From Macrocystis pyrifera (lineage: Eukaryota; Sar; Phaeophyceae; Laminariales; Laminariaceae), in NCBI GenBank assembly GCA_031763025.1, contig JASSKH010000038.1, forward strand, positions 1,033,001 through 1,097,000: a DNA stretch of 64,000 bases, read 5' to 3'. Below are positions 533 to 58,255 of this stretch, piece by piece. The notes under the pieces were generated by a model. That model saw only the letters and a program-made list of their open reading frames with translations, made no database searches and was not told the DNA's origin. The translations under genes were made by a program, and so were the position numbers. Every line of letters begins with the position of its first letter. Positions within the stretch are counted from its first letter, which is position 1.

Positions 533-649
533 CTGCCGCAACCCTCATAAGAGCTCCCACCATGCCCGCCTCTACCAAGGCGCTTGGTCCTTCGCAACCC
601 AAGACTGCAACTTGGTGCGCCAGGGCGGCGCCGTGTTTCGCTGACCTCC
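533..649 (-). CDS. Armadillo-like exon with GC donor
   Basis: Thirty-nine codons, acceptor after a pyrimidine tract at 650-651, reading AALAHQVAVLGCEGPSALV followed by EAGMVGALMRVAA. The pattern of small and Leu residues ending in 'LVEAGMVGAL' is the classic armadillo H2-H3 signature. The donor is AG|GCAAGA, the same non-canonical GC donor sequence used by two well supported channel exons (14258 and 17754). It lies downstream of the channel, so it is either a C-terminal armadillo segment of the same protein or part of the next gene on this strand. Confidence 0.55.
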
Positions 650-1011
650 CTGATTGTGACAGGCAGTCAGAAATCAGTGTGGGATATGGAATGCTCGAAA
701 GCCGCCGTGCCAAGTTGCGCACGGGGTTGTAGATGTTCTGACCGCTTGTAGCCTCGTTGCTGGAGCAGCGGCCGGAGTGTGGAGGACATCCGGTTCGACC
801 GCCCTCCAGCAGTGTGCTCACCTGACGAGTCAAACGTTTGTTCGCTTGTTGTGGTTTAAAGAGGCACTGGTCAAGCTTTGAGACTTGGTACGCTGTCGAG
901 CTTCTCGTTGTGCTGGCGGAATATACCCAACGCTACATAGGTTTGAAAAAACGAGTATTGTACGTTTTACACATGTGCACGATAATATATTGCGCACTTT
1001 TTGGCATTTAC

Positions 1012-1144
1012 TGATACAGTGTTCGTGCAGCGCCGATGTATGACAGTCCAGCTCTGAAAGGCGTTCATAAAACAACACGACATGCAGGTTTTCATGTTCC
1101 GCATCCGTAAACAAGATGTCTCTTATGCCTATGGTGCCACACAT
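1012..1144 (-). CDS. Candidate helical exon before the C-terminal ARM unit
   Basis: Reads DILFTDAEHENLHVVLFYE then RLSELDCHTSALHEHC, with a donor A|GTAAAT. Starting at the AG at 145-146 of the second kilobase (phase 0) it ends in phase 1, which is exactly what the exon at 533-649 needs. The amphipathic pattern is compatible with an armadillo or HEAT-like helix pair, but no family is recognised. The acceptor is weak. Confidence 0.35.
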
Positions 1145-1222
1145 CTCGCAGCTTTACAGTCGACACTTGGGCCCTTGTCATGGCATACGTCAAGCGGGGA
1201 TACCACATCCAACCCCACGCAC

Positions 1223-2900
1223 CTGTCCCAAGAAGTAATCCCTGATCATTTCAGTTGCCAGAATGGCCAGCGTTTCCGCTGGCGACGTTCCACCCTCGCC
1301 TTCGCTCCAATCTGCACGAGACACGTTTGCCCCACGCCTCTGCCAACGTTTCTCGTGCATACCTCTGGCGCTGCTGCTGGTCCATCGATACCCCTGTGCC
1401 CCCTTCCGCCATTTTCTGTCCATTAGGTCGGCTGTTCGGGAGCTGGACTGCGCACCAGAGCTCCTCGATCCGATTTTCCACCACCAATGTCGTTCCTTGG
1501 ATGGTGAATGGCAGGGGAGGCAGAGCGATTCTCCCAGCGCTAAACGGGCCAGCATTGCGAATCCGCTTTCTTCGCCATCGTTGGTGCCTCGTTTCCACCG
1601 CGTGGCCAGGAGGACCGCAAAATTCCCCCCGCCGCATTTGTAGAACTCAGAACGCGGCACCTGCTGCGAAGTGGTGCCAGTGACACCGGTATGCGTTGAG
1701 GAGGCCCGGCCAAATCCTTCCACGGACGCGCCGGGCGGCCCGTCTACTATGCTCGCGATCTCGCCTGGTGTAAGACCTGAAGAGCTCGATAGTGATCTCC
1801 GACGGACCATCCTATCGTCTGCGGTATATAATTCCGTCTCGTTGGCATCTATGGTCTGCAAGCGGGAGGTATCCACCTGCTTTGCGCAACTGCCACGGCC
1901 GTGTCCTGCTCGACGAGACCCCCCCGCGTAAGTGGAAGCCGATGTCGCGTCTATACTTGGACGGCGGGGCTCCGACCATGGGATTGGCTTTTTACTCTTT
2001 TTCGCTGGGTACGTTGAGGCGGCTAGTGTTCCCCTTTGTTGCAGTAACGGAGATATGTAACCCCCTGGCGTGTGTACCGCCACTGGCCCCGGCACCTCCG
2101 ATCGCTTAGCAGCAACCTTGATCGGCGATCCGTGCGAATAATCAGAGCTGCTTTGTCCGCTTCTTTTAGGTGTTGACACGCTTCTGAGGTAGGGATATTG
2201 ATGAGCTACGCCCACCCCAAAATCTATGGATACGCGCCTGCGTAGGGCAGATGGCGATGCTGCTTCGAGAGCCGAATTTACTTCTGAAACCAGAGGAGGG
2301 TTGGATTTTGGTGATGCTCCTTGGTGATCGCCTGACGTTCCATTTCCAACCATGGGTCCCGATGAGCCAAGGCGAAGGAGGGAACCGAGAAGCACGAGAA
2401 GCTGCTTTACCTCGTGCTCGACCCCAACGTGCTTGAAGCTGATAGCGGAACACGACTGTTCCCCTTGTTTATGTTTGCTCGTGTTGGGGCTGTGCCCATC
2501 AGCTACAAAAGAGACATCCAACTCGCATTCAAAAGCCAGTGCCCGATCTAGCGTGGAGAGCGTTGCAACTAAAAGGTATCCGCCTCCATGCTTACGTAGA
2601 ACCTCGTCGCCTGAGCACTCCAAACGAGTTGTTCCCGACGCTCCAGGTTTCTTAGAAGCCGGTTTGTGCCGAGATTTGGCCAGTTGACACCTAGAATCAA
2701 CCCAAGACTTGCAATTCGTCTCGTTGACCGTTTGATTACCAACGTTGGCAGAACCCCGGTCCTTGGTTTGACACGAATAGTACGAGGCCTCTACCAGCAT
2801 TCTCGCCACTGCCACAGCTGTTTGTCTGTGGTATTTTCGACGGCGGAGGGGCAAGCATTCTCCGTGTGTTACCCTAGGTTTTCGATTTGTAATTCGTGGA
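1223..2900 (-). CDS. Ser/Gly/Arg-rich open reading stretch, probable large exon
   Basis: The longest open frame in the window (about 600 codons, open from about 3013 to a good donor CAG|GTGCGTG at 1222). It is rich in Ser, Gly, Thr and Arg, for example RRRSLSSSSGLTPGEIAS and VSIDFGVGVAHQYPYL, and lacks recognisable domains, as expected of a disordered linker with phosphorylation sites. The right-hand limit is not resolved; 2900 is approximate. In the last 400 bases a second frame is also open and looks equally protein-like (TTLVVENRIEELWCAVQLP), so a small intron or a frame change may be hidden there. It would lie C-terminal to the channel. Confidence 0.5.
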
Positions 2901-3356
2901 GAGGCCTGCGATATCAAACGTCTTCTTTGATATAGTTGTCCCCTTACGATGATTGTTGTGATACCAGAGACACGTGACCAATCAGTTATTTGGTTGGGCA
3001 GAAGCGCGCACAATCGATGATATGAGGCATAAACGTAGGCGCCATATAGCCCTCACTATGTTAAGGCTGACACACTATGGTGCGTAGGCGGTCATCGTAG
3101 CCAAAGCAGCCCCATTGCGCCAACCAATGATTGTGTTTTTTATGCATGCACCTCGATGGTGTTGAGCGTCGTTCCATTTGTTGCAACCCCCTACCTGGTC
3201 TCATTCCAACGTCGTCGTCTCTCCATCGCCGAAGAAGAGAATGTTGCGGTAAGCCACAGGACCCATCTCCATGCCCTCGCCAATGCACCGTGTACTAGCT
3301 CCCCAAGCGGTTTATGTCGGACTCCAGCTCGGGACGCCTGGTAATGGGCAGGGGGG

Positions 3357-3804: not shown

Positions 3805-4252
3805 TCGTCTTGGCGACATACTCTGCGAGGACACGCAGCAGCAGGTCCATGTGACGTGAGGACTCACGGACGCAAGCTACGGTAACGATGGCAATTATTG
3901 TGTCTGGGGCTCCTCACTTGTAGATCTCTGTGCCTCACCCGACATAGCAGCAACCGACTTTGGCAACAAGAACTAAACTGTAAGCAAAGCCCGAATCGAA
4001 CGGTTTGAGTTAGTCCTCTAACGAACACCATTTGGGAAATGCGTACTTCGAAGTGTCGGATCAAACGGTGTTGGGTAACTCCTCAGGGCAAGAGCCCCCC
4101 ATTGACAAAAATATAACCTTAAACATGTAAACTCTATCGTAGCAGGGCTGCACAGTTACGCACAGGGTTACCTGTAGTTACCCGCATCCGTGGGGCCCTA
4201 TCCCGATAACCTACTCATGGGCAACCTAACTTCATCCCGTTCCCAGGCTCAC

Positions 4253-9454: not shown

Positions 9455-9581
9455 CTGTGCTCTGCACCAGTCGGCTTTGGCCAAGGTCTTCAGCTCCTCG
9501 TACAGGTCGTTGAGCAGCGAAACCAATAGGTTGAGCATCACCACGACCACCAGCAGCGTAAAAAGGGCTGTAAACGCATAC
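9455..9581 (-). CDS. Channel exon: S6 gate helix
   Basis: Encodes YAFTALFTLLVVVVM followed by LNLLVSLLNDLYEELK and AKADWCRAQ. The pattern of a hydrophobic S6 with Asn-Leu-Leu, then Asn-Asp-x-Tyr-Glu and an alanine-tryptophan stretch, is shared by polycystin and TRP channels ('LNM.LAI..DTY'). Acceptor CCAG|G in phase 1, matching the pore exon; donor CAG|GTAGGT in phase 0. S6 lines the pore and forms the lower gate. Confidence 0.9.
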
Positions 9582-12500: not shown

Positions 12501-15500
12501 GCTACCGTAACACGCGTCCGACGTCGATTTATTGCCTACCTCCGATTAATTGCCTACCTCCACGTCTGATGAAGCTCCTGTTCCCTGATGTCGTCGAAAG
12601 TGAACTCTCCGAGGGTTTCAGGGTACTGAGTGGCCAGTGTGGAGGCTACGCTTTGCATCATAGATTCGAGCTGGCCGAGAAGTGTGTACCTGAACGGGTG
12701 GTGGATGTTAACAGCACAGCGGGAATTAAGGGGGCATCCTACCTATCATAGGGGAATCACCTTTAAGATATTATGTTTCTGCGGCTCCGGACCATTCCCC
12801 CATAGAGTGGCTACCGTCTCTATTTTGCAAGTCTTGACGAAAAAAAAAAACGTTTTTGGTTTCGCGATATGCGCCTCCATGGAAGTAGTGAACATGGCGG
12901 TACAAGCAAGGTCTGCATGACCGGTATCAGCCTGAGGTGCTCCGTCCCGGCATTGTAGGGATGTGAGAGTCTATGGTCAAAATACTATGGCCACGCAAGG
13001 CATCATGTGATCTACCTGGTCGGTGAAAACCCGACGTGCTCCGTCTCGGCAATGTAGGGATGCGAGGGTCTATGGTCATATGACTACGGCCATGCACGAT
13101 AATGAGTACACCGGTTGGCGACGGTTGGCAACGACACTGTAAAACATGCCGCTCACTACGTGAGCTAGACATCCAGGGTGCCGTTTTTTTTTTTTTTGGC
13201 GGTCGCCCACAGCTGGTCGTCTAGTTAGATCAACTCTGCACAAGGGAATTGATCGTATCACGTAGTGTTCAAGGTACGGCACCCAAGAGGTAGTTACATA
13301 GTACTTCCATTGCTGTCTCTGGGAGTGGCCACACCGGAAATTAAACTAACTCATTGAAGCTGTCATCCATATGCAAGTCCGCCTCACAAGCGGTTCTTAG
13401 TAGGATGCAGCTCGCCCTACATGCGACTCGCCGGGCACCTCACGGCGCTTCGCGCTTGGTGCAAGCAATGTCTGTCTGGTCGGTGAAAACCCGACATGCT
13501 CCGTCTCGGCATTGTAGGGATGCGAGGGTGTATGGTCATACGACTACGGCCATGCATGAGATCGAGTACATCTCTCGTATCGAGTACACCCCCCCCTACC
13601 GGAGTTCGGGTCATGGGTGCGTATCTGTCCATAAAGGAAGGACGGCTCGCAATGTCTGTAGCCCTTTGGTGTTGATTCGTGTGCATCTTGACGAGTAATG
13701 GACGTCAACAAGCAGCGTATTCAAGTGCGTGCGTCTCGAACCGTTAATATGAAGGACGACTCCCAACCGTTGAAGCCTTTATGTTTCATCGTCGCTGGAA
13801 CATGATTCTACATACTCCCTCTCGGCCAAATGGGAAAACAAGTCATTCCTCTGGATAGCGATTCCACACCTCCAAGGCTTTACATCGCACCGCCGGTACC
13901 AACATGAGCGATGAAACAGTCGGGGGGGCGTTTGAGAGGGTGGGAGCTAGGATGTTTGAACTTGGTGGGCGATCTAACGTCATCTGACGAGTATAGACCC
14001 GATGTGGTGAACGTTCGCATCAAGTGGCACTGACAGACTGCCGAAATGCTCAAAATCTCCCGATGCGGAGGCTATTCACTGCCAGGTACGTGGCATTGCC
14101 ATGGTATTCGTGAAGAGTGCGCCAAGTCGTACTCGCTGTATATGGTCAGACTCCCACTGTCTACAGAGTTTGGCGTAAGCAACCCCTAAAATTTCCTACT
14201 TTTCTCTTGAACGAAGTCACGAATTATTCTCCAAATACGTGTTTCTCGCTATCTTGCCTCGCGAAAGCCCACGCCACGTAGATGATGCCGAGCAGAGGTA
14301 AGAAGCTCTTCACCAGTTTACCTGTGGAGAGAACGTTCAGGTCGGTCGCACGTGACACAGTTGTTGAGGCAATAGGGTATCCCGTCCACCGCAAGTTCGC
14401 ACCTGCAGAGCCTCGCACACGTGCTTACACCCTCAACACGATTTCATACGATGATACACCACTGGGAGACACCTATCGGGACATGCAGCACGCTTATTAT
14501 TTCTCGTAGCTTAATGATTGAAACTACGGCCGTAGGAGGTGCGATGCAGCACTGTTGGTCGACGCCTATATCGGGACACGCAGCACGCCAATTTCCCTCT
14601 CTCGTGCGATGCTTCAAGCGCCGACTACAGGAGCTTCGGGGAAGGGGATAACACGAAACGTGTCATTCGTCGCCTTCCTTCTGCAATCAAGGGTGTCTCT
14701 GTTCGCCCTTCCAGTACTACCAGGCCACGGATTTGGGGAGCCATCTAGCGCAGAGTCGGTTGCCAATCACCAACACTCGGGTTGACTTCCTTAGGTTCGT
14801 CGGCATGATTGCGTAACGACATGTCTTCATTCGTGTCTGCTTGACTACCGAGAGTCACCGTTGCAAACGTGTCGCGGAAATGATTGCGGCCCCCAAAAGC
14901 CCCGACGTTTGTCTTCAACGGCACGAAGACAGAACGCGGACTGCCCGAGACACTTAGTATATACGCAGCTTCCAGCGTTGTGAACATGATACAGACGGTT
15001 ACATAATCTTGACAACGGGGTTTTATAGCATGCTTAGAGGCTACTCAGCTGCTGCGTTAGGGACCCGGAAATAGCGGCCGAACGAAGAATAAGTGTGCTC
15101 TCATGAACCCGCTACGAGCACTAAAAACGCGCAGCAGTATACGTAGGACGATGCTGCCTTCACCTGTGTCGTTAGACACCTCACAATATATTTCGACAGC
15201 ACAACTGTCCTCTCCTATCTAAGACGATGGAGGAGTGGCTGATGTTGACTACAACCGTCCTTTAATAGTCGCCAGCTTCTCTCTGAAAAGACCCAAAAGT
15301 ATTCAAGCAAACCTGCAACCAAACCCGGGGACGCAATAAGTGTACCACGGGGGGGGCATAAAACAACATGCTGACTATTCCTAAGAAAACAAGACGAGGC
15401 CACATTCATCGCCAGCAAATCTGAGGGGCCTAATTAATTCCATGCTAAATGCGAGTTACCGCGAAGACGGAATCTCAAGCAAGACACGTTGCGAATACCG

Positions 15501-18500
15501 GGCGCCCAGATTGACGACCTCGCGTACCTATCATGAGGGCGATCATCTTGACAAGCAGGAAGAAGTCCTGGAAGACTGCCTGAAGAGGGTTCATGAGCTT
15601 GACCCACACCAGAAGTATCATGGTCGCCACCCACTGTCGCCTTTCCGTCATTAGCTCTGCCGCAGGCCTGCGCAACGCGGTAGTCCCCATTCAATGGTGG
15701 GGGTATCGAAACGTGAGCTGACCACAAACGTTGAGCCCACCGGGAGAAACTCTTAAAATACACAGCATATAGCTGGAGGCCGCAACCTCACAGTTCCATC
15801 AAACAATATCCCGTGTGGTCATCAAGGAGTATATTCTGAGTCATAATGCCATACAACGGTAGGGGAACCAGGTTTGGCTTAACAATTCCTGACCGATTGA
15901 GTTTCTTACGCGAGCAGCTGCCGGCTAGCATGATGCGTTCACTTATTGTAGTATTCTTTAGTTCAAGACTAGTGCATTTAACTATTGGTTCGGTCGCGCG
16001 AACAAACGTCTTTGAAGTATCATGTTTCGGGTCATTGCTATTGATATTGAGCTCTTCGCGTGAGGAGCCCAGATGAAGGCACTAGCTCTACAAGGCATTG
16101 CTATACAGGGAGGGAAATTCCAGTGAAAAGGGGTTGTAATACAAATATGGTAGAATGGCGGGAGCATCCCTCCCCAAGTTGTAGTCGAAAGGAGGGATCA
16201 TTGTGCCCCCTGGTGCTGATTACCGAACCCGCAATGAGGGTGTGCATTGTCTGCTTCGGGTTATGGCGTCTCGCAAACACGTCATAGTAAAACTTGAGGC
16301 AGGCTGGGGCACGCCCGGGCACCTCTCTCTCGCCGATGTGCTTTTCCGACCCCCCTAACTGCGCTTCGCGGTTGGCACAAGCAATACCTGCCCGGTCGGT
16401 GAAAATCGGACTTGCTCAGTCCCGGCATTGTATGGATGCGAGGGTCTCGGCCATACGACGACGACCATTCATGACAATGAGTACCCCCCCCCCCCCCCCC
16501 CTCTGTTTGACGCAAAACGCGGAGCTATACCTCTGTTTGGCCCGTTTCCTTTGTAGCTCTACTCGGATTGCACCTATCCCACAGGATTGTTGATCGGGTT
16601 GCAGGACCAGTTGTTGCTGAAGTCGGCTATGGTAGGGATAGTTTCATTGCCTGAGGCTCCTCGCCTAGGGAAGATTATACTCATCTAAACAACAGAGCTT
16701 GGCAAAGCTTGTAGGGTAAGGCCGCTATCCAATCCTGTGGACTACGTAGGTGCCTTTACGAGTGTTATTTTCCACACAACCATCTGATCCATAGGTGGTG
16801 GGTGGATCCACCTGATCCGACGATATTGGGTAGCTCCATCTGATCCAAAGGTATTGGGTACCTTCACCTGATCCAAAGGTATCGGGTAGCTCAATCTGAT
16901 CCAAATATATCGGGTAACCCCATCCGATCCGAACGTACTAGGTAGCTCCACACTGATCTAAAGATACTGGGCGGCTCCATCTGATCCAAAACTATTGGGT
17001 AGCCCCATCTTATCCAAAAATGTTGGGTACCTCCGTCTCATTCAACGATATTGGCTTCGTAGTCCACAATTTATGAGCTCCATCCGTGAGAAAAGGTTTG
17101 GTCTTTGGTCAATTTCAGCCCCTACCGTGGCGCGCCCCATGAATACACACGAGGCAACGGTATCATGCAAGGAACATCATAAGAAACTTAACGCTGCACC
17201 CCTGCAGAGGGATGCGTTTCGATTCAACTCGTTGTCGCGCGTTGCCTGCATACCCAACCTGAGGGTCAGATTCATTTCCTAACATTGGCCGCGCGTGTTC
17301 GAAGACGACAATGGCAGGTAGAGGGTGCGCCGGGAGGACGGAGTCCACCATTTTTGCCGGAGGGAGATATGTTTGCAACCCAGCACGGATAACGATTCCC
17401 TCTGTTTAAAATCCCCGAAACAAACAACAATCAAGTCAATCCGCGCGATGCTTTGGAACACTCAAGCTATGGCCAGGAGGAAGAATCACAACCCGGCGTT
17501 GGGGACCTTTACCGTTTCACAGTAGCAGTTGGTGTTGTACCCACGAGAATGAAGCCAAGAACAGCAGCAAACTATTTATGTGTCACGACCTTTTTTTTGC
17601 GCAAAAAAGAGTGTTGCTGTGTAAAACATATAGTTTTCACTCTTGTGTACCCCTAATCCAATTAAGGAAGGGAAAGAAACCTGCCCTCCTGGATGCATTA
17701 ATGCCAAACAAATTCCACACCCTATGAAAACGCATGGCATAAGTTTATCTTGCCTAAGATCCACGTAGTGATCGCCTGCTTGAAGATCGAGGCCTGCAAG
17801 GACATTTGCTAAGCCAATGTCCAGGCCAAAAATGGTAGCGTGGCCCACGAGGAGAAGCACGTCGACGATGTTTGCCACCGCCAGGAAATAGTAAGGACCC
17901 TTGCGTCACGATCAGATGGAACACAATTTTGTCGGAAGGCGGCAACGAACCAAGCGAAATGCATTGGATCAGCGTGCGCCTTCGTGACCTCCACAAGGGA
18001 ACTACGTAAAGGATTTGCGATCACAGTTAGCCTTTACTTTTTGTTCGGTATACGCCTGCAGTCGACATAATTGCTCATTGGGTTGTGCGCGTATAATATT
18101 TTTCATGGTCGACTTTATGGAGTTTTCTCTGCGAACACAAATATCTTCCCATTCGGACGCTGAGAAACATTAGGCACCCTCTGAGAAACATCAATTACCC
18201 CCTGGCAAACATCAGGCATCCCCTGAGAAAACATTAGGAACCTTCCGAGAAATATTAGGCACACCCCCTACCGTGCAATACTTCCTTGGAGGCGCTGGTG
18301 AAATGCTTGTCCTCCGCAACGGTCCACCGAACTCTGGTTCATCACAGTGTGATGCGCACTGACGAGAAAGCCGTCGTACTTCCTGCCGCGGTCTATCTCG
18401 GTTCATGTGTCAAATGGCTGTTTTCGTGCTTGCTCTCTTTATTTAGGCTTATTCGGTTCGTCCCGTTCAGTATTCGTCGAGTTATACGAAGTACCAGCCT

Positions 18501-21500
18501 GCAAATATCAACGTTATGTGTGCCAACGCGACACCCGTAGAAGCGCGGGGCGCCGCAATATCTAGGCGATGCAGGACGACGCTGTGCAATCTCACGGCCA
18601 CAGATCCGGCAGAGTAATCGTTGCTATCGTCCGGCTATGACAGAGGTTAGCGCTGTGCGACTCGTACCTGTCGTCTGAGTTCCAGCCCCTCTTTGGCAAG
18701 GTTGACCAGCACCAGAAGTAGAAGAGCAAGGTCGATCTGAAATGTCATCCTTCGTGTGGGGTAAAGCATAGACATACCGCAAAACCAGCATCAAGGTAAG
18801 AGCTAGTGTGTTAAGGGTAGTTGATCAAAGTGCCCGTATGTTGGATGTTTCTCGGGTTCTGTGCGTCTGCTCCAGTGCTCATACTCCCGTTCCTTATGCA
18901 CCCATGGTTTGGGAACAAACTATTGTTCTTGAAATTAAGGCAGGGTCATTGTTAAAGTAGTCCAAGTGGCTTCTTGAGGAAATTTTAGCAATGACCTTAC
19001 TCTCTAATTGTAGTTTCTACGCATGTTCTCCTGAGCGGTGCCCGGAGGCCGGAGAGTTACCAGGCACACATGACCATGGGTACATCCTCACGTGTTAAAG
19101 GTGAGGTCTTATGTCCGGTTTTGTAGACTGCAGTTATTGCCAATAACTTCTTCCAACAACGCCCTAAAGGTCGTGTAGAATTATTGACGTCCCCCCCCCC
19201 CCCCTGTTCGCCTCACGCTTGACTAATGGTACAGGCGTTAATAGAACCAAGCGAGACCGCTGTCATTGAATACAACTCGTGCCACCGCGGCTGTAGGTTT
19301 AGGATCACTTTTAGAGTATCGGATTTCAGCGACTCCAAGCCGGTTGCCACCTGATCGCTATGCAACGAATAAGTGTGTTTGCGTGTTTCCTATATGCATC
19401 TTCATCGACTATTTTCATTGCGCTGCGCCAACGCATTCATGTGGAGTCAATGTTTGAGTGAGGTGCAGAGCCACTGATACGAGTGGCCAAACCTCGGTGA
19501 TGCAAGTGGGGGGACTCCCGCAACGTAGATGTGGTCGTACGCTCTCACCTGTCGCCCAACAAACCACCGCCGTCACTGCCTAGCTCCGACCAAACGGCAT
19601 CTACGTTGTTCCCGACCACCAGCTCGCGTAGAACACCAAACGAGTTGAACGTGCTGAATGTATTGTACGATGGGTGGGTCTTCGGAACGCCTCCCTCAGC
19701 CGGCAGCTCCACGAGAATGCTCACGTACATCAGCTTTCTTGCCGAGAAGCTGTGGAGATCAATTTCAACTGCGAGGGCGCGGGTGGCTTCGTCGATCCAG
19801 CCATCCTTCTGATGTGTTTGGAAAAGATAGACGCGTGTAGGGTGGTATTACGTGAGCCATGAGAAGAGAGCGAACGCTTCGCAGAAATGGGAGAGAACCA
19901 ACTGTGCAATGAAAACGCATGTCATCAGGTTTTGCAAACACTTTCAGCAGGGCGCCCTGACAACGTTCCCGCCCCGACTTTACTCTGTAGACACTACTGG
20001 ATCCGCCCGTGGTACGGATATTGATGGCGGCGCTGATTTCCTTTGATGGAAGTGATGGAAAATGTTATCGTTTCTTGACTTGGGTCAACAGGCAATATCG
20101 GGTGAATTGGCGCGACAAGAACATTTGTTTCTAGACGTTAAACCGACACTGTGTCGTTTCGTGTTTCTCCCATTCAATGCATCTAGCTCTTTGAATGTGT
20201 TGTGCTTGTCGTACCCAGTACGACAGCATATCACTTCATTGTCCACTCTCCTCTCCTTACGAGTACTGCATCACGATCTGTGTTGTAGTCAGCGGCGACA
20301 GAGCTAGCATCTCTCCAGGATGAAGGACCGGCACGGGCACAGGGCGTGCTGAATTGTCGACGGGTAAAACAAAGCGTTCAATGTGAAGAGCACGCACAAC
20401 ACACATACTATTCACGATGCGTACAACTAAGATATATAGCTGGCAACGAGGTCGGTTGGAGGGAGCACAGAAACCCTGCTTCGTGAACTGGTACGGTATG
20501 TGCACGCCATGCAAGGTGTGAGCACATCAAATATAGTTACCTTAGTGATGGAACAAACCTGGCCCCCATATTCTAACGAGGTGCCAACGCACCAAACCAA
20601 CCTGGAGCGCTCCCAGAGTTTCCAAAGCAGCCGAACGGGATTCCTGTGTGATATTCGCCAAAAATGATCCCGGCCCATACATTCCGAACGAACCGCCAAT
20701 GGGATGTGCGTGCGCGTCTGGGACGTACTGATACCTGAAAGAGCAGTCCAACATGGGTTAGGAGCGCAGTCGACATTCATAATGCCCAACGCTTGACGAG
20801 ATACATAGGGTTTGGTACGTGTCTTAGACGGTTTCATACGCGTGCCATACTTTCTACCCACGCCTCCATCCCAACAGGTGTGCGGCATGCTACCGAACCG
20901 AACCGCTCGCTTAGTATTGGTGAGCTGTCGACGTTGCGCTCGGATAGTCGTGTTCTCACTTCTGACTAGGGCCGAACGAATCTGTGTTCATAGCCGCTCC
21001 GTCGCACATCGGCCGCCCTGACCAGTCTTCGCCGCAGTAGTCAGCAAAGCAGAACGTGCCCAAGCCTTCATCAATGTCCGGCCACACCTGGTATTCATCA
21101 TCGCAGAGGAATTCAATGTGCGGCCCCTATTCTTGGCCGTCGCTGACATGTACGGGTAAAAAACAACATAGCACTACTTGAATTGGTAAATCGATGTAGG
21201 GCCGCCGTGTCTTGAAGCGGGTCGCTCTCGACGCCTGTAATGGCAGGCCGACGGGAAGCACACCTGTTTGCTCTTTCAATACCGCAGTAGTAGTCCTTCG
21301 TCTACCACAGTAAACCAACACATATCCCATTTTCAATATTGTTTGCAAGTCCATAGGGCTGTGCATCGGGGTTAGCTTGCAATGTTGCTCGAACTTGGTT
21401 GTTTAGGTATGGAGTTCCTCATGGGAGGAGTCTTCGAAACGTTCGGTACTGCCCCCGCTACCGTCGCACGCGTCAGCCGCACTGCTACAGTAGGAGCAGG

Positions 21501-37187: not shown

Positions 37188-37402
37188 CTCCAAGACATCT
37201 TCCCCAGCTTCGTCAGCAAGCGCACCGAGTAGCTTGAGTCCTGGGGGGGCATTGCGCTTGTTTCCCTCGTTTCCGGCCGCACTCGCCATCCCAGCTCCAA
37301 CCGTTTGTGAAGGTCCCTTTCGAGAGCTACTACTGCATCCGCCACGAGTTTCATCTCCGCCAGATAAGCGAGCCGACGCACCCGAGGTGCGAATACTCCG
37401 AC
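37188..37402 (-). CDS. Helical exon
   Basis: Acceptor CCCCAGCAG and donor GAG|GTACGG. The best frame reads VRRLAYLAEMKLVADAVVAL then ERDLHKRLELGWRVRPE and YSVRLLTKLGKMSW, strongly amphipathic. A longer frame across 37188-37860 is also open but is Ser/Gly-rich and less protein-like; it may be partly a shadow. No family assigned. Confidence 0.55.
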
Positions 37403-38633: not shown

Positions 38634-39005
38634 CTTGTTGAGCGTGTGCTTGCGCTCTTGCCACTGCGACACACCCGCGCTCGTGTCTCCGAACGCTCCC
38701 CACTCGGAACGCATCTGCGATCGATCAGCTGGGCCACTGGTATCCTCTTCGTCATGAGAGTTTCGTCCGTGCTGGTTCATGGCTGAAGAGGCGAGCGCGT
38801 GTAGTTTAAGCGTCCGCAGGTTTCGTAGAAACTTGCTAGCTGTTTCTAGAGACGCGTTGAACGGAGCCCTGAGCAGGTCTTCTCTTGTGGCCTGCGAGAC
38901 ACCCAGCCATTTGAAGGTGGTTCCGTTGCCATGGGGGAACGATACCGTGGGGAGAAGAGTTTGTTCTATCTCTTCATTAGCTGCGTGTCTGATAAGGCAT
39001 GCGTA
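38634..39005 (-). CDS. Exon, unknown domain
   Basis: A 124-codon exon, phase 0 to 0, acceptor CTACCATAG, donor AAG|GTACGG. It reads LIRHAANEEIEQTLLPTVSF, then DLLRAPFNASLETASKFLRN and GVSQWQERKHTLNK. The start could be the end of an armadillo helix; the rest is polar. It follows the exon 39301-39612 in phase. Confidence 0.65.
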
Positions 39006-41668: not shown

Positions 41669-43395
41669 CTGCAATGTGCTAGATGATATATTTCTTGTGG
41701 TTTCCCAAGACGGTCTGCGTCAAAACGAGAAACGGCCTCGCAGCACGGTCAGCACTTGGCAATATTTCGTTTACTTCCAGGGTCGCGGGGGTACAATGAT
41801 TGCCACGATCGTGGGCAGATGTGTGTTTCAAACCGTATTGTGTGTGCTGTGGTACTACACGTCCTGCTGCAGACGAGTATAACAATGGGATCTCGAGGGG
41901 AGGCGCTGTTACAAGCCTCATGGGTTAGGAGTGCCGCATGCGACCCTGGGAAAAACGTTTCCTCTACACATTCCATTTGTGTAGCAGCGTTGTCTAGATT
42001 CGGAGTCCTTTGTCTCAATCACTAATAGTTCAGCTAAGTTAGGGCTCAGCTGTGTGGTTAGTTCATGCTGAGGGTGGGGAAACTATGAAGTTTTCGTCTT
42101 GCAACGCTTACGGTGGTACACACTTTCCTTATGACTGCAAGTTATCACCCGTCGCGACTCGCTAACCGAGCCACGGTAGGAGTTTCATGTTCGAGCTCAA
42201 ACCGTTGGCACTGACGGGGGTCCCCATCCAAGGCAACCATTGTAACTTCCAAACTATCCAAGATGTCATAGATACGTTGATCCGAGTTTTTGTTTTGACT
42301 ATCCTTTTTTATCTTTGCCCTTTTTTTTTCTCTCTCTCTTCGAAATCGTCGTAAATCAGACCCAGGGTGACATAGCACTCTTCCCCCTTTTTGCAATTTA
42401 TTTTTGTGACAACATTATGGCCTCATCGACTCGCGTCACATGATTTATTAGTACTTCAAATGTAGTTCGCTAGATACCTTTTGCAGCCAGAGGGATTGTG
42501 TATCAGGTATATTCTAGTCTACAATTAGTTTCAAAGCCGGTTGTGGGGTTTGCTGTGCAGCTCCTGGCGTGAGGAGCTTTAGACGCCAAACGTAGGTGCT
42601 CCTGCACCGGTACCGTAGGACGCGTTTTTTTTCGTGTTTCAGTCGTGTTTCCGTCGGAAATGCTAACCTCTAACTAGGTATCAAGTTTCTAACGTTCCTC
42701 ACCCGTTGTCGATGGCAGGATCCCCACCAGCCCCCCCCTTTGCCCACGCAGGTGGTGCATGATCGAGGTGGAGGGTGTTCGTGACGTACGTATGCAGCTG
42801 CGACGTCAGGCTCTCGATGACATCACGACTGGCGGCGACAGCAAGAGCGACGGTCGGGGGCAGTACGTTGTGCGTTTAATCTTTCGATTACACCGCAAAC
42901 GTCACCGTAGTCAAATTGCGATTGTACGTCTTAGTAGATGGCCGAAGACACTGCTGCTTCGTGAAGGTTTGAGTCCGGAAAAGTTGCACAGTTGATCTGC
43001 ACTTTTGCGTGAAGCGCGGCAATGCTTAAAATGTGATTACACTTTGAGACACGAAACTGATACCGCACGTACAGCATACACGCACATATGGGGTCGAGGC
43101 CTGAATGAAACTGCCTAGGGGAAGCGCCAGGATCCCTGCTGCTTCGTGGTTGGCCACGCTAGCTTTTGCAGAGACCCTGTGCAAATGAACTAAACAGCCA
43201 GAACAATGGCTGCGCAACTAAATGTACTGATTTCATTGTCTTCTTTTGTCATGGATACGGAACGACAGCCGCCTTCGACACAACACAATATTCAAAAATG
43301 ATAAAATCAAGCCGATACGCTTTCGATGTGCGACACAACGCAATTTTGAATACGATACCCAACAATAGATCCCATGCAACGCCGAAGTTTCTCAC

Positions 43396-43508
43396 GCGAG
43401 GATATCTTTCACTGCGGTAACCGACTGGCTCGCCAAGATCTCCAAGCACTGCGACGCCAATCGTGCCAGCTCGGCAACATCTCCATTCAGCGCGAGAGCC
43501 ACACAGCC
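43396..43508 (-). CDS. Armadillo-repeat exon
   Basis: Encodes GCVALALNGDVAELARLASQ then CLEILASQSVTAVKDIL. Alternating small and Leu residues with 'ARLASQCLEILA' fit armadillo H2-H3. Acceptor GAGTCAG in phase 0 fits the IQ exon; donor CGC|GTGAGA. Confidence 0.7.
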
Positions 43509-44543
43509 CTGACTCCTCGGATCCGGCTCTGTTCCTCCAGCCTGCCTCTCTCTTCGTCCCCTGTGGCAAGTATTGGCTGGTGTGTCGGTGCCTGGTGGTT
43601 GCAAGAAATCGCCCAAGTCCGGCTTCGAGAGACCGGTGTCGACGCCTGAGCGGGTAGGAGGGAAGAGCCCCTCACTACCACCAAAGTTGTTTGGGTTTTC
43701 GAGAGTTCTCGGTAGTTGCTGTTGTTGTCGTTGTTTCTTCTTCTGCCGTGATGTTGCTCTGCACGTGACGTACGAACACCGTAATCGTATAGAGGGGCTG
43801 CTTGTGGAATACGGAGAGAAATGGCTCTATCCTTATTCGTACCAACGCCATGTTTATCGATGCAGGAGACAACGAGCATCCTTACGAAGCATACCGTCCC
43901 GAACAACTACTACTGGCACACACGCAATAAAACAACCAGACTGAGATGGGCAGAGCGCGAGGTGACTTTACTGTAGCGGGAACGTCTTCCCACGCATGAA
44001 ATTCGAACTTGGCTTACGTTTCCGCTTCTCAGGGTCATTTTTATCAGAGAGCGTTTTCCCCCATATTTTCCATGCATCTCTCGCGCAATTTTTCAATCTG
44101 CCAGATTTTCCTGATTTTTTTCCAAATATGTGAAATTCACTTTCCTGATTTTTTTGCCTCTGGAGAATTTCACGAATACTGACAGAACGCCTCCGTATCT
44201 TGATACATATCTCCATTATTTCCAAAGTTTGGAAATTCTGGATATATGCTCTCCGATAAGAATGAGCCTTAGTATGTGACATGTGCTGTGCATTAGTTCT
44301 GTGTACCACTGTACCAGATTCGAATTTCTCCCATCCACGGCGCCGAGACATAAGCCCCCCTTTGATGCTGGCTGAAGTAATACGTCGGCCGACCGACCGA
44401 GATTGACCGATGGCACACACGTTGCAGACAGTTACCACGCGAACATTCATTTGCGTGAATTGCTGTAAGTAGCGACATCTATGGTATCTAGCTTTGCGTC
44501 CCGATACGACCAGCCTTCAATCGGTTCAACAGAGGAACGCCAC

Positions 44544-44765
44544 TTGCCGTTTTCTCCCCCGGAATTCCTTGAGTCGTTTTTGGATAAGCCGAGCAGCTCG
44601 CTGTCGGATTGGCCGCACTAGACAAGTAAGCTGGAGGATGACAGCAGAGCGATCTCTTTCGCCCATAGCCTTCGAGAAGTGCTGAAGGAGACATGCGTCA
44701 AAATAGCAACGAACGGCCGACGAACACGGTGGGGAGTCGATCTCAGAGTGTCTTCCTGCGTAACG
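44544..44765 (-). CDS. IQ-motif exon (calmodulin-binding)
   Basis: Seventy-four codons, phase 0 to 0, with one of the best acceptors in the window (TACCTGTCTCAATCAG) and donor CAA|GTGGCG. It ends RPIRQRAARLIQKRLKEFRG then RKRQ, a good IQ motif (A-x-x-I-Q-x3-R-x4-R-x-R-K). Earlier residues (DACLLQHFSKAMG, AVILQLTCLV) are helical. IQ motifs bind calmodulin or related light chains, often without Ca2+. Neighbours on both sides in phase are armadillo exons. Confidence 0.78.
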
Positions 44766-45488: not shown

Positions 45489-45617
45489 CTCCCCGTTATG
45501 TCGAATGAGGTGGAGGAGAGCTCGAGTGCACGAGTACTGCACGTGAAAGTCCCTGATCCTCATCATGTCCAGGATCATGGAAAGCCCTCCGCCTGACAGA
45601 ATGCTCGCGGCCGACGT
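45489..45617 (-). CDS. Armadillo-repeat exon
   Basis: Forty-three codons, phase 0 to 0: TSAASILSGGGLSMILDMMR then DFHVQYSCTRALLHLIRHNG. 'GGGLSMILDMMR.....VQYSCTRALLHL' is an almost perfect armadillo unit, one repeat per exon. Acceptor GGTGCAG, donor GAG|GTGACG. Confidence 0.88.
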
Positions 45618-47779: not shown

Positions 47780-47882
47780 CTCCATGCTTGCCCGTGCGAT
47801 AGATAGATGGATCGTAAGCGCGTCGCTCCCGAAGTTCTTGAGGGCCAGTTCCGCCTGGGTTCGCTCGTGTATGTTTTTTGAC
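47780..47882 (-). CDS. Armadillo-like exon
   Basis: Encodes SKNIHERTQAELALKNFGS then DALTIHLSIARASME. 'TQAELALKNF' matches the armadillo 'VQ..ALRALGNL' helix. Acceptor TGCGTAG|G, strong donor GAG|GTAAGA in phase 0, fitting 45489-45617. Confidence 0.7.
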
Positions 47883-49444: not shown

Positions 49445-49576
49445 CTTTGGAATTGAAGTAAGAGAAGGAGCCCTCCGGCTTGTTTTGAGGACAAGTCTTT
49501 GGCTCGGATTGATGCTCAGCTCAGCCATCAGACCTGCCACCGCCCTTTTTGCCGTGGCTGAACACTTCTCGGCAGC
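49445..49576 (-). CDS. Armadillo-like exon
   Basis: Forty-four codons, phase 0: AAEKCSATAKRAVAGLMAEL then INPSQRLVLKTSRRAPSL. Acceptor CACACAG, strong donor AAG|GTGAGG. The helical 'AKRAVAGLMAELSIN' suits an armadillo H3. Phase to both neighbours is unresolved, so small exons are likely missing on each side. Confidence 0.65.
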
Positions 49577-50786: not shown

Positions 50787-50899
50787 TGTAGCGTCCGCAT
50801 GCTCGCCTGGAGAAGTATCGGGACTCCTCCGTGTATAACAATCGCTTCTCGATACAAATTGTTCGCGCTTGCAAGGCCTTCCAGCACACAAAGGGCCAC
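50787..50899 (-). CDS. Armadillo-repeat exon
   Basis: Encodes VALCVLEGLASANNLYREAI then VIHGGVPILLQASMRTL. 'ALCVLEGLAS.N...REAIV.HGGVPILL' is a textbook armadillo repeat. Acceptor TTGTCCAG in phase 0 fits 51275-51356; donor CTACA|GTGAAT. Confidence 0.88.
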
Positions 50900-52030: not shown

Positions 52031-52655
52031 CTGCCAGACACGGTTTGATCATGTGTCGTGCACAGCATCGGGGACATCCACGACTGTTTCCCGAGCGAAA
52101 GGTTGACTCAACCTTCGTTTAGCTCCTTGGTTGGTGAATATCGCTCCACTTGTGCAAAAAAAAAAAGGACACGAATATTTGACCCCTTGCCTGACCACCC
52201 CTAGCACTAAGCCCAGTACATAAAGGCCAAAAGAGACCTTGACAAGCCCAAGCAGACCGGTCTGCTAGATTTTTATCATGCATACCAGAATATTGTGTCG
52301 TGGTATGAAACAGTGGGCAGTAGGCAAAACGAACGGAATTTTCGGGGTGTCAAGGTTTGTTTTGCCGCAACTGCATCACCATCCTTCAATTTGTTCGGAT
52401 TCTGCTCGCCCGTAGGTTGCTCGGCCAATTTTTTCACGCTACCTCCGACACCATCAGATCTCTAGAATTCAGAACAGCGATATTTTCTGAAGCTAACATG
52501 ACGAATCTCGATAAAAAATAAACGCATCGTCGTAGTTGGGGGGGGACGTGTCCAATAAAAATACGCTTTGAGTTTTGATGCATTTATTGTATAATACTAT
52601 ATCATGCACCAAACAGCACACATCATACCCTAAAATATCGACAACCTTTCCCCCC

Positions 52656-55330
52656 CTACCAGATGGTCTCCCGGCCGAACTCCTGCAAATCGACCACCCC
52701 GCATTCGCCCCGTGCTTTCACAACATCCTTGTCAGTGGTTGGGTAACAGGAGAAGTCCCCCACCAGTGGGAAGATGCAACCATCAAGGTCTTCACAAAAA
52801 GAAGGACCGAACTGAGTGCAACAACTACAGAGGGATTTCGTTTGTTGCCCACGCAGGCAAAGTTTTGTTGAAAATCGTCGCGTCCCGCCTCAGCAACTAC
52901 TGCGAGACCGAGGAATTACTCCCGGAGGAACAGTGCGGCTGCCGCCCCGCACGATCAACGATTGATATGTTGTTCGTCGTGCGCCGGTTGCAAGAGCTTG
53001 GACGACAGAGGAAAATTCGCCTGTACTTGTGCTTCATCGATCTGCAGAAGGCATTCGACTCTGTCGACCGAGAGCTGTTATGGGAGGTGCTCACACGTTT
53101 TAGCGTACCAACTAAAATGCTGAGAATTATCCGTAATTTCCACGATGGCATGCGGGCCTGCGTGCGTACGGATGACGCCGAGCACTCGGAATGGTTTGAA
53201 GTCACGCAGAGGCCGCGGCGAGGTAGTGTGCTATCACCGTTACTGTTCAATATATTCTTCGCTGCTGCGTTACACGTCGTACTAGTAAGCTTTAGTCATG
53301 ACGAAGCCATGGTAAGGGATTTGGTCCAACTCAATGATGCTAGAGTAGTCGGAACGGAGCAGCAGGAGCCGTTGGCGTGCGCGCGAAGGGCTGTATGGGG
53401 CGTGTTGTACGCCGATTACGCAGGGATTGTCTCGAAGTCGGCTGAAGGGCTCGCGAAAAAGATGACAGTCATCGTGACTGTCTTCGAAGCAGCAGGCCTT
53501 ACGGTATCGGAAACGAAGACAGAGGCAATGCTACTACAAACGCCAGACCAGAAATCCCTCGCACCACCGCTCGTCATCGAAGCAGCAGCCCAGAGGTATA
53601 AGCAGACGGCCCAGTTCTTATACATAGGCGGCATCATCCACCAAAACGCTGACCGCTCGCTCGAAATCGACCGACGGATCCGTCTCATGCGAGCATGCCT
53701 CAAACGGTTTAGCCCGGAGCTGTATGATAGGACGACCGCCCTCCTTAGCCTGAAAGTCTGAATGCTGAAGGCGGAGGTGATTGAGACCCTGCTGTACGGG
53801 TGTGTGACGTGGATCCTCAGAGCGGAACACTTTGCCAAGCTTCGAACGGCTCACCACCAAGTCCTGTTGCGAGTCATTGGCTTCCAGCGCCGACTTCGTA
53901 CTGATCATACCACCCTCTCGTACGCGAAGGCTCTCAAGATGACACGTTGCAAGAGCATCGAAACGACCATCCGCAAACGGCGTCTCTTCTTCGCGGGGGG
54001 GGTGGCACGGCCATGCAAGGATCGATTACCCAGTTGGGCAATGTTCGGGATGATGGCTGGTGGGGAGAACCCAAGACCTGGCGGACAGTTTAAGACTTGG
54101 CATAGATGCATAGACGAAGACCTTAGGGAGTTCCGAGCCACCGAAGGGTCAACGGAGCTTGCCCCCTTGGTGTTAGGAGTTGAGGCCGCGTTGTGGCCCA
54201 CTGCAGCCAAAAAGGCCGGGAAATGGTACTGGGGGATCCTCGAAGCAGCCGAAAGGTTCATGGTGAGGTGGCACGAGGCTGAGACTGAGCTGAGCAGGCA
54301 GCGCCGCGCATCCGCCGTGGGTGGTGTCTAAGGGGATGGGGGGAGGGGGGGGAACAAGAGGGGTAGCAGAAAACCCGACCAAGGGAATGCGGAGAGGGGA
54401 GGGAACAGGAGTAGAAGGGAAACTGCAGTGGACGAAAGTAGGAAGGAGATGGCAGATAGGGTAGCAAGGTACCGGGCAGACTAGGAAGTAGAACATGCCT
54501 ATACTACTCGTACCAACAACTGGTGCAGCTGGTTCGAACATGGTCTTCCTTTGTCTTTCTTTTGTTTTTGTTTATTTTTATTTCATTTTTTTTTTCTTCT
54601 TTTTGCGCTGACCCTATGTGATTTTCATTTCATTTCTTTCTCTTCATTTCTCCGATCGATAAGCCTTAGCGAAGGAGTCGTGTGGCGTGGGTGGATGACG
54701 AGCCTGCTTTGCTTGTTTCGTATTGTCTGACGCCGAGGGGCCGGGCATAGTTAGACGAACGCTGGACGAAGGCGGCAGGCAGGGTATCAAGGTACCAGGC
54801 GGACCAGCAGGGAGACCCTGGCTGTGCTACTCGTACCTTGAACTGCTGCCGCTACCTGGAGGATGCTCTGTGCTTTGTTTGGTTTGCCTGTTATTTTCCC
54901 TGTGTTCTTAGTCTTAACTCTGTTGACGGCTAGTGGTGTTTTTCTTCTTTTTCCTTTTTTTTCCAGTTCGTTCTTTTCAAGTGTCTGCCAGATCCCCTGC
55001 GGGGGGGGGCACGGTGGTTTGTTTCTTGCGTTTTTTATTTGTTTTCTTGTTTCTTTTTCTCTTTCGAATTGTCTTTTTTGTTTTTGTTTTTTTTTCTCTC
55101 TGTTTCGTTTCGTTCCTCTAGGTCATGGAATGTGTATGTCGTGCTTGTCGTACGCAGTATGATGACATGTCACTGCATTGCATACGTGGTAACGTAGTAT
55201 CTCTGTGGCGTAGCTTTGTGACCACAGAACTTGTATCTCTAGGATTGTAGAATCGGCACGGGCACTGGTCGTGCTGGATGTCGACGGTAGAAGGAACGGT
55301 TTTATGTGAAGAAAACAACAACTACCCGTC
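52656..55330 (+). mobile_element. 5'-truncated non-LTR retrotransposon (LINE), degenerate
   Basis: The insert begins inside the reverse transcriptase: [19 protein letters not shown], then after a +1-type frame change near 52797, [58 protein letters not shown] and [14 protein letters not shown]. The catalytic YADD is YADY here, and an in-frame stop at 53759-53761 splits the frame before the C-terminal part (LLYGCVTW, SYAKALKMTRCKS), which ends at 54331. The 5' endonuclease is absent. The 3' UTR holds G-rich and T-rich tracts and an internal duplication (54448-54540 and 54768-54860), ending in an AACAACAAC-type tail. It is opposite in strand to the host gene and lies in the intron 52031-55903. 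The copy is inactive. Confidence 0.9.
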
Positions 55331-55903: not shown

Positions 55904-56043
55904 CATCGCCAGTTGTCACGGTTTCCGGAAAAACGATCGACTTGCTGCAGAAAGCATCCTTCGTCAAGGCTCTCACGAGCTCGGCAGCGGCTAAACGAAT
56001 GCCGTGATCGGTGCTCGCAAGGCAAGCAACTATCTGTCGAGGT
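55904..56043 (-). CDS. Armadillo-repeat exon
   Basis: Encodes RQIVACLASTDHGIRLAAAE then LVRALTKDAFCSKSIVFPE. 'IVACLASTDHGIRLAAAELVRALT' is a clear armadillo unit. Acceptor TTGTTGCACAG, perfect donor GATG|GTAAGT. Phase fits 51835-52030 across the LINE-bearing intron. A 178-bp tandem duplication starts 44 bases upstream of it. Confidence 0.85.
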
Positions 56044-56087
56044 CTGTGCAACAAACGGAACGTGCAATCGTTGGGCCATTCGGACAG

Positions 56088-56443
56088 GGGAGTTATGTGT
56101 GATTCGTGTAGGCCCGCGAATATTCGGGGCCCAAGCGTAACGTGGATACTGCGCTTCCCGCACGACCGAAAGCCTATAAGGGGTTGGGTGAGCGTGCCGG
56201 TAGTCAGTGCGTGGGTTTGACAGCGTTCGTGCTAGGTCCCTCCGAGAAGGATCCACAAGTGAGTCGGGAGTTATGTGTGATTCGTGTAGGCCCGCGAATA
56301 TTCGGGGCCCAAGCGTAACGTGGATACTGCGCTTCCCGCACGACCGAAAGCCTATAAGGGGTTGGGTGAGCGTGCCGGTAGTCAGTGCGTGGGTTTGACA
56401 GCGTTCGTGCTAGGTCCCTCCGAGAAGGATCCACAAGTGAGTC
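56088..56443. repeat. Tandem duplication, 178-bp unit x2, essentially identical
   Basis: Unit 1 is 56088-56265 and unit 2 is 56266-56443; by eye they are identical ('gggagttatgtgtgattcgt' to 'ccacaagtgagtc'). It lies in the intron just upstream (in gene sense) of the armadillo exon 55904-56043. Open frames inside repeat in both units and are not exons. Confidence 0.95.
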
Positions 56444-57056
56444 ATGACATGATAGAGGGGGTAGGTCTGGGCCAACATCGTTATGGCTGACGGGGCTTCC
56501 TCATGAACCGCGCAACTACCGACCTCTTTATTTTCGACCCTATTTTTATTTTCAGCGGTTTGGTTCTTTTTTTGTGGGGCGCTTATCATGCCTCTTGAGG
56601 GCAGTCAATTCTTTGGCGAGGTATCCGGCTCCTCAGCACAAGAGTCTACGCAAAAAGTGGTATGTCCCCTTGCCATAGACTAACCCGAGTTTTAATTTAC
56701 GTTGGACCCAAGGAAACCCTGAGCATTGTCGGAAGATAAATGAAAAGTTGTAACGAGCGAATGGAGTTGCTATTCGTGCACCACCGCCTAACGCATAGGG
56801 TATGCCTTTAGGTATCGTTGCTTAGCCGGGTGAAGCCGGGGACCATGTAAAAAACTCGAAAATAGTCGTTATTACTCAAAAACATCCGTTTTTGATTTTT
56901 ACGATACTTCACCAATGCACGCAAGTTGACGACATCCACAAATATCCACCAAGGCGAGTGCAGGGCGAGAGCCACCGAATCGCAGATTGTGGAGATCCTC
57001 GCGAAAAAGTCTCCTTCAGATGTTGTCTCTCACCTCGAGCCCCTTGCTAGGCCTAC

Positions 57057-57212
57057 CACGATCGAGAGGTCATTTCTTGTGACCATTGTGTGTAGCAGCG
57101 TGAGGCAAGCATTCTTGACCCACAGGCTAGGTCTTCCAAGGAAGCAGGCAACGGCGGGGACCACTCCTTCCAGTACTCTAGAGTTAACACTCTGTCGTGA
57201 AGCAGACAGGAC
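57057..57212 (-). CDS. Armadillo-repeat exon
   Basis: Fifty-two codons, phase 0 to 0: RQSVNSRVLEGVVPAVACFL then LWVKNACLTLLHTMVTRNDL. 'VLEGVVPAVACFLGRPSLWVKNACLTLLH' is an excellent armadillo match. Acceptor CCCCGCAG, donor GTG|GTAGGC. Confidence 0.9.
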
Positions 57213-57531
57213 CTGCGGGGTGACGAGCAGAACACGTGTTGGTACGAGCGCGCGCCTCTCCGTCTGATGTGGCGTTGTATACCGATGTGCTCACACATAG
57301 ACCGTGAACAACTTAGGTTGCTGGGGCGAGACAGAGGAGATAATTGTCGACTCCAAACATATGGCAACGACCATTGGTCAGGGTCAATGAATCGGTGGAA
57401 ATCTCTGGCACGTACTCACGCTATGATGAACATAGCCCGCAAGATAACGAGGTGTCGTTCCTGAAGACATGCTCGGATCAGAGGTACACTTGTCTCTGTG
57501 GATGACAACGGCCCTAGAGTGGGAACGTTAC

Positions 57532-57653
57532 CTTGCCGATCGCCAGCAGGGACATATGCAGCACCGCGTCTCCCGGCCCGCACCGCACCAAGCGGCAACA
57601 CAGCAACAGAATGTCGTTCAAGCGCTCTGTTCGTCTCTGTTCGCTTTTTCCCC
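57532..57653 (-). CDS. Armadillo-like exon
   Basis: Encodes RRTERLNDILLLCCRLVRCG then PGDAVLHMSLLAIGK. Helical Leu/Cys-rich pattern of an armadillo unit. Acceptor ATGTGCAG|GG, donor AAG|GTAACG; phase fits both 58072-58255 and 57057-57212. Confidence 0.78.
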
Positions 57654-58071
57654 CTGCACATTATAGCAAACATGATGGATATAGGTAATATCCTCAAATA
57701 TCGGAGCCCATTCGGCGATCATTAAACCCGTGGTACGCGAGACGGGGGCTAAGTTAAGAAGCCGCTCACACTGGGTCCCATTGCGTTTGTTCCTGGGTAC
57801 TATAATCGATGGCGTTTTGTTATACGCTGTCTTTTTCACTAGTCTTCCTTGAGCTACAAGATTGGCGCTGCTGTTACAAATTCGGAGAGCATTCTTCCTG
57901 TACGGAAGGGTCTACAGTGCACTACCAGGCGAAGTGTGTTTTACAAATTCCAGCTGTGCAGGAACTATCGACAACCCCAGGCATACGCAGGGACTATCGA
58001 CACCCCCGGCGACACGGCCAGCTAGCAGTGTGAAGTGAGTGAGTATAGGCTAAAGCTTATCATCCTCTCAC

Positions 58072-58255
58072 CGTGCATATCGGCAGAACGATTCACAGGC
58101 GCTGGCATTCCGTTCAAGCTTCCCCAGCGATTCTTGCGAAGTTCACTTGATACTTCTTTCTTCGACCGAGAATGCCGTGTATCCTCGTTTTCCGGCGTGA
58201 AACCTTCAGGAAAGTCGAGCAGCGATAAAACTGCCCGGAAGAGCATTTGTACAAC
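58072..58255 (-). CDS. Most upstream recognised exon
   Basis: Acceptor TGACATTCAG and donor CACG|GTGAGA. It reads VVQMLFRAVLSLLDFPEGF, then a polar stretch (HSRSKKEVSSELRKN, MPAPVNRSADMHG). The start fits an armadillo helix, the rest a loop. No initiator Met context is convincing, so the true 5' end is probably further right. Confidence 0.6.

Follow-up and report, generated by a model that had tools for sequence, protein, structure and literature searches.

A predicted polycystin-2-like channel gene with N-terminal ankyrin repeats in the giant kelp Macrocystis pyrifera

The window analysed here is a 64,000-nucleotide stretch of contig JASSKH010000038.1 (assembly GCA_031763025.1, positions 1,033,001–1,097,000) from the giant kelp Macrocystis pyrifera. 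Its minus strand carries, in order, exons for ankyrin repeats, S1, a TOP domain, and S2–S6 with the pore, and their predicted frames are compatible. Coordinates are window positions, and all exons listed lie on the minus strand. Judged from sequence, these exons probably form a single-copy gene, extending at least from 35.2 kb and at least to 9.4 kb, for a polycystin-2-like cation channel with an ankyrin N terminus. An initial annotation had proposed one gene in which armadillo (ARM) units and an IQ motif precede the ankyrin repeats and the channel. Its minus-strand exons are mostly real. The ankyrin exons, polycystin domain, S1–S6 and pore were borne out in that order by Pfam, PDB and the splice frame, so that the ankyrin and channel part of the proposed gene stands; the membership of the ARM units is a possibility, and the IQ motif is unsupported.

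Ankyrin array and channel exons

Eight exons encode the ankyrin array. Exon 1 (35126–35165) is supported by frame and by Pfam on the joined chain, exon 2 (34180–34317) by Pfam and frame, exon 3 (33476–33586) by Pfam, exon score and frame, and exon 4 (32528–32630) by Pfam, the consensus test described below and frame. Exon 5 (31289–31380) rests on exon score, consensus test and frame, exon 6 (28378–28503) on the anchored gene model, frame and joined-chain Pfam, exon 7 (27404–27532) on Pfam, anchored model and frame, and the last, exon 8 (26498–26614), on gene finder, consensus test and frame. The eight joined exons match Ank_2 at 5.5e-31, in a chain where exon 7 is shortened and three X stand before it. 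The same array finds 279 PDB sequences below 1e-10; ankyrins lead the best 60 of these 279, which include NOMPC and TRPA1. In the raw minus-strand frames, Pfam places ankyrin families at 27–35 kb (best Ank 2.4e-6). An ankyrin consensus was also scored against unselected open reading frames (ORFs) of at least 25 codons on both strands. Four of 1,778 ORFs reach 8 bits, all on the minus strand, namely three ankyrin exons and one repeat sequence at 59.7 kb; none does so in six shuffled windows. Separately, long low-complexity frames rich in Cys, Leu and Ala occupy 28000–30300 on the minus strand, and short-repeat frames rich in Phe and His occur on both strands at 59500–62100.

The exon chain comes from a gene model anchored on peptides recognised by eye and refined by listing splice sites. 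The codon and splice model was trained on 62 loci of the same genome (30 kinase, 30 helicase, 2 channel) and then on its own predictions. The anchored model broke at two stops (50783 and 19545), and these breaks were bridged by choosing other donors. The Pfam scan covered the minus-strand frames of 7–47 and 49–59 kb in 10-kb blocks, with stops written as X and E-values up to 1.

The ankyrin exons are followed by a linker exon (24066–24149, acceptor score 5.3), an exon for the pre-S1 segment and S1 (23100–23198, phase 0-0, acceptor 5.2), and an exon that starts the TOP domain (22469–22568), whose alignment to polycystin-2 scores 3.7 bits. These eleven exons, from 35165 to 22469, form one open frame with stop-free joins, and it is this predicted splice frame that connects the N-terminal array to the channel. 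The open frame is support rather than proof, because the splice sites were picked among alternatives. That the array and the channel are separate genes is quite unlikely. The 2.3-kb gap before the linker exon would suit such a division, and there is a small chance that one gene ends and another begins at 26.5–24.1 kb. However, the linker and S1 exons have strong acceptors, which makes coding exons upstream of them probable, and every join between 26498 and 22568 is open and in phase 0. Ankyrin exon 8 and the linker exon are 2,348 bases apart, and the gaps inside the two open chains of the locus range from 225 to 2,976 bases.

The second open chain comprises eight exons (20734–9455) that run from TOP to S6 in one frame, again with stop-free joins. 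It contains two TOP exons, one at 20602–20734 (Pfam, PDB, splice frame) and one at 19669–19808, which alone matches Polycystin_dom at 1.1e-4, just short of the cut-off, and has weak splice sites. A probable further TOP exon at 20960–21087 was read by eye, and no single-exon match was found for it. Alignment to polycystin-2 together with frame supports the exons for S2 (18668–18749), S3 (17721–17899) and S5 (14239–14321). The exons for S4 (15528–15667), for the pore helix and filter (12558–12670) and for S6 (9455–9581) have this same support and were called by the gene finder as well, and the S6 exon alone gives an Ion_trans match at E 0.05. In the single-exon scans, Polycystin_dom near 19.7 kb and Ion_trans near 9.5 kb were the channel signals.

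Joined, the channel exons match Polycystin_dom at 3.1e-10 and PKD_channel at 1e-7. The TOP domain lies between S1 and S2, and the match covers the C-terminal half of the Polycystin_dom profile; S2–S6 with the pore loop align to polycystin-2 over query residues 142–463. In the PDB, with E up to 10, the channel chain has 33 matches. The first 13 are polycystin-2 (best 9dwt, 1.9e-13), and these are followed by three polycystin-2-like 1 entries and one polycystin-1-like entry, so that polycystins make up 17 of the 33. Matches outside the polycystins are far weaker and include mucolipin-2 (0.048), TRPC3 and TRPA1 (E 5.5). The pore motif LGEF aligns to the LGD filter of polycystin-2, and WVKLMN in S4 to its WIKLFK; by this alignment the acidic filter is retained and one of the two S4 lysines is lost. 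The S6 motif LN..L...ND.Y.E.K is retained. When the ankyrin and channel exons were joined into one chain, with X at the two unknown TOP joins, Pfam returned Ank_2 (6.7e-26), Polycystin_dom (1.7e-9) and PKD_channel (3.6e-7).

The gene appears to be single copy, since three of the four matches of the channel query in its own genome are the window itself and the fourth has E 4.15. The query from the ARM-like block likewise finds the window in nine of ten matches (tenth E 3.37). Neither the channel nor the ARM-like block yielded a paralogue that could guide the exons. Three viral and 16 prokaryote stretches that matched the peptide pattern were examined, and none encodes a relative. Searches of the genome by family returned 2 matches for PKD_channel, 53 for Ion_trans, 1 for Polycystin_dom, 53 for Arm and at least 167 for Ank_2, with no window exon among them. 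Two mutually similar PKD_channel exons on contig C219, at 15181291 and 15920088 (L001, L002), belong to other polycystin-like genes of the kelp; no Ank_2 or Arm lies near these two loci among the matches listed. On the same contig, a dense run of Pfam Arm matches covers 34 kb of the plus strand (2995173–3029627), possibly a giant armadillo-repeat gene.

Several observations weigh against the proposed ankyrin–polycystin gene. One TOP exon, for the N-terminal half of the domain, was not found between 22469 and 21087; most of TOP is present, but its completeness, as initially annotated, does not hold. Weak splice scores occur at the S2 acceptor (−2.3), the S3 acceptor (−1.5), the S5 donor (−1.6), a TOP acceptor (−1.1), a TOP donor (−1.3) and the donor at 34180 of ankyrin exon 2 (−0.4). 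The anchored model closed the gene at the TOP exon (stop 19545) and reopened it at an ATG before S2. A small self-trained model was used to select splice sites that preserve the frame, and the window is absent from the matches of whole-genome single-exon searches for PKD_channel, Ion_trans and Polycystin_dom. The unaided finder overlooked many exons of the chain. It found the gene in part, with 47 exons on the minus strand (score 164.0) and 27 on the plus strand (76.7), and is noisy, as these 27 plus-strand calls indicate.

The codon bias of the gene is weak. This, together with its single copy, could be expected of a decayed pseudogene, a reading that we consider very improbable: the filter and S6 motifs are retained, and 28 chosen exons (1,083 codons) are stop-free, with 0.63 GC at third codon positions against 0.50 for the window, although their openness is partly due to selection and one exon, at 57.6 kb, was read in the wrong phase in that count.

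From these data a working scheme may be proposed for the polycystin-2-like channel. The eight-exon ankyrin array would form its cytosolic N terminus. As in polycystin-2, four subunits would be held together by their TOP and pore domains, and the channel would pass Na+, K+ or Ca2+; tetrameric cation conduction is suggested by analogy with the polycystin and TRP families. The ankyrin arms would extend into the cytosol and serve there either as a tether or as a docking site for partners, pulling on the pore or positioning it. Ankyrin arms of TRPA and TRPN channels have been proposed to act in such a way. As a guess, the channel might act in flagella, either of gametes or of spores, or else at the plasma membrane; the guess comes from Chlamydomonas PKD2, which is described as flagellar (PMC6744473).

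Armadillo-like block and the low end

Upstream of the ankyrin array, a block at 57.7–43.4 kb may, with caution, be read from its sequence as a divergent ARM array; the caution is due to the pieces having been picked by eye. Three ARM-like exons with checked phases stand at its head, at 57653–57532 (phase 1 to 0), 57212–57034 (0 to 2) and 55920–56043 (2 to 0). Joined, they have 71 PDB matches, led by designed ARM proteins (best 1.2e-8), and the lower matches among the best 60 of the 71 include importin alpha and three methyltransferases. The next ARM-like exon (50787–50899) has no good donor, and the anchored model ended the gene of this block here, at stop 50783. Three phase 0-0 exons follow, at 49445–49576 (weak acceptor, −0.3), 47780–47854 (gene finder and exon score) and 45489–45617 (gene finder). 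The phase-checked chain from 49.6 to 44.5 kb has seven PDB matches, of which three are OR proteins (best 1.2e-12), three are Vac8 sequences (0.26–0.39) and one is a viral protease (1.9).

All joined exons of 57.7–43.4 kb gave 31 PDB matches with E up to 10, the best to OR497 (4.4e-8) and the next at 1.8e-5. Twenty-eight are, going by their names, designed armadillo proteins, and three are designed OR proteins, OR497 included, which we take to be armadillo-like. The E-values of the ARM chains are inflated because the targets carry many repeats; in the alignment displayed for each chain, single stretches score 3.0–9.9 bits, and each taken singly has an E-value of at least 6.5. The reversed chain finds one PDB match, at E 0.97. 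Pfam Arm matches the joined chain at E = 0.019, short of the cut-off, and no Pfam family appears in the minus-strand frames of 37–47 and 49–59 kb with E up to 1. NCBIfam returned for the two phase-checked chains one match, at E 0.26, which is not armadillo. When ORFs were scored singly with an ARM consensus, the highest value was 8.2 bits, from an ORF that is not an ARM exon, compared with 8.0 in shuffles; the second and third places go to ARM exons (7.3 and 4.5 bits). Of the one-repeat-per-exon ARM units first described, then, the armadillo matches in PDB speak in favour, but the Pfam value and the chance-level single ORFs do not. No further clear ARM exon was found by eye in the 10 kb upstream (L077). 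The largest gap in the block contains reverse-transcriptase-like retrotransposon frames of 375 and 189 codons on the plus strand (52634–54328, by eye), and a similar frame occurs downstream of the window (L079).

The helical exon at 44544–44681 was the candidate carrier of the IQ motif, which found no support. Pfam gives no IQ match in the joined chain, a strict IQ pattern is absent from the minus strand, and a loose one occurs 13 times in the ORFs of the window (8 minus, 5 plus), twice in the ORF at 44.6 kb. The IQ-like motif is at chance level.

At the other end, the gene had been drawn down to nt 533. The tested pieces from 5.8 kb down lack domain support, and membership of 9.4–0.5 kb in the gene is unsupported. 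The candidate tail pieces at 5.8–1.2 kb, where tail exons are uncertain, have no Pfam match, EF-hand included. A Ser/Gly-rich minus-strand frame at 3052–1193 has 620 codons, against a maximum of 288 in 60 simulations, and no Pfam match; it may be the tail of the channel or another gene. The ARM-like stretch near 0.53–0.65 kb has neither Pfam nor PDB support. An ARM-like block that continues downstream from 0.65 kb as far as −3.2 kb, plausible by eye, was likewise rejected (best Pfam or PDB E 0.83).

One gene or several

The region of 44.5–35.2 kb links the ARM-like block to the ankyrin array. It contains four exon candidates outside the training set, at 43396–43560 (score 11.2), 42703–42828 (9.3), 38634–38891 (14.8, phase 0-0) and 37188–37402 (11.9, phase 0-2). 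The best plus-strand candidates score 12.0 and 10.0, the latter being the reverse-transcriptase frame. By these scores a coding-like signal continues through the link; no credible domain was found in it (best Pfam E 0.25, no PDB match). In another frame, 37931–37149 has 261 open codons, where a first-order model predicts 0.03 such frames on each strand; with its ATG at 37289 and, at 37188, a donor scoring 3.9, it is a possible first exon. Frames of 250 and 287 codons are also present in the window where no gene is seen.

One-gene and two-gene models were compared over 49.7–32.4 kb at two exon-cost settings. With a free boundary the scores are 272.4 for one gene and 273.0 for two, and 314.1 and 325.8 at the other setting, a gain of 0.6 or 11.7 units; a boundary that costs 3 units gains nothing. 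The gene model cannot separate one gene from two here. The best one-gene path includes additional small exons and uses a different frame for the stretch at 37.2 kb.

A single giant gene, which would extend the ankyrin–polycystin gene upstream through a linker to an ARM array, is possible but less likely than not. The ARM, ankyrin and channel exons share strand and order, and one of the four link candidates exceeds every plus-strand candidate. Phases agree from 38634 (0) to 37402 (0) and from 37188 (2) to 35165 (2), but the model partly imposes this agreement, and at 37.2 kb a different frame is used in the best one-gene path. The 31 gaps between exons have a median of 990 bases, the largest being 5,020 (55.9–50.9 kb) and, in the link, 3,811 (42.7–38.9 kb). 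The anchored model, however, closed a gene inside the ARM-like block, the ARM assignment itself is weak, and the two-gene model does at least as well with a free boundary and equally well with a boundary cost of 3 units. The 537-Mb genome of giant kelp is described as containing 25,919 genes (PMC10498591), a spacing of about 21 kb, and therefore 57 kb would hold two or three on average.

That spacing suits two or three neighbours instead, an ARM gene from 57.7 to about 42.7 kb, the ankyrin–polycystin gene and perhaps a third, an arrangement that fits the gene proposed here and to which we give about an even chance. The possible first exon at 37.3 kb, the gene boundary that brings no score penalty and the 620-codon frame at 3.05–1.19 kb agree with it. 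Against it, exon-like stretches run on across the link, and no clear terminal exon or promoter was found there, no promoter search having been run. The ARM-like block may belong to a neighbouring gene or form the N-terminal region of the ankyrin–polycystin protein, and a separate gene is slightly favoured. If a single ARM–ANK–TOP transcript exists, the channel it encodes would bear a stack of two solenoid arms and might serve kelp cells or flagellate gametes as a scaffolded mechanosensor.

Comparison with known channels

The ankyrin–polycystin protein predicted at 35.2–9.4 kb has its closest PDB relatives in polycystin-2 (TRPP2, PKD2), with which it shares S1, TOP, S2–S6, the acidic filter and the S6 motif. 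It differs in the ankyrin array placed before S1 and in its divergence, single channel exons falling short of Pfam cut-offs. In S4 it keeps one lysine (WVKL for WIKL), and the next K is replaced by N. Animal PKD2 carries a C-terminal EF-hand and coiled coil.

Animal TRP channels with ankyrin arms and those with TOP domains form two separate groups. TRPA1 and TRPN (NOMPC) resemble the kelp protein in the N-terminal ankyrin array ahead of a six-helix channel, but the kelp core is polycystin-type with a TOP domain, unlike the TOP-less core of TRPA and TRPN. The sections seen of a TRP review describe TRPC as lacking TOP and TOP as resembling a TRPML domain.

In brown algae, TRP channels are reported to have expanded, and few non-animal ones to have been characterised (PMC11085791, in part). 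Polycystin- and REJ-like proteins feature in the excerpts seen of the Ectocarpus gamete literature. In the full text searched, which held few subscription journals and lay outside UniProt and eukaryote proteomes, the passages returned describe no ankyrin–polycystin fusion; an example elsewhere, described or not, may well exist. Chlamydomonas crTRP1 is also an algal TRP channel with an ankyrin domain (PMC6744473). Compared by description, it differs from the kelp channel in a domain composition likened to that of TRPC, and TOP is not mentioned in the sections seen of that paper. The oomycete PKDRR channels are, according to the parts seen of two papers, stramenopile polycystins with extra domains (PMC4820453, PMC7399828), but there the additions are RyR repeats close to the C terminus and not an N-terminal ankyrin array. 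If the kelp gene is as predicted, the presence of ankyrin and TOP in one channel would mean that a cytosolic gating module can be united with an extracellular one, and the protein would be a natural case for testing whether polycystin pores can be gated by an ankyrin arm.

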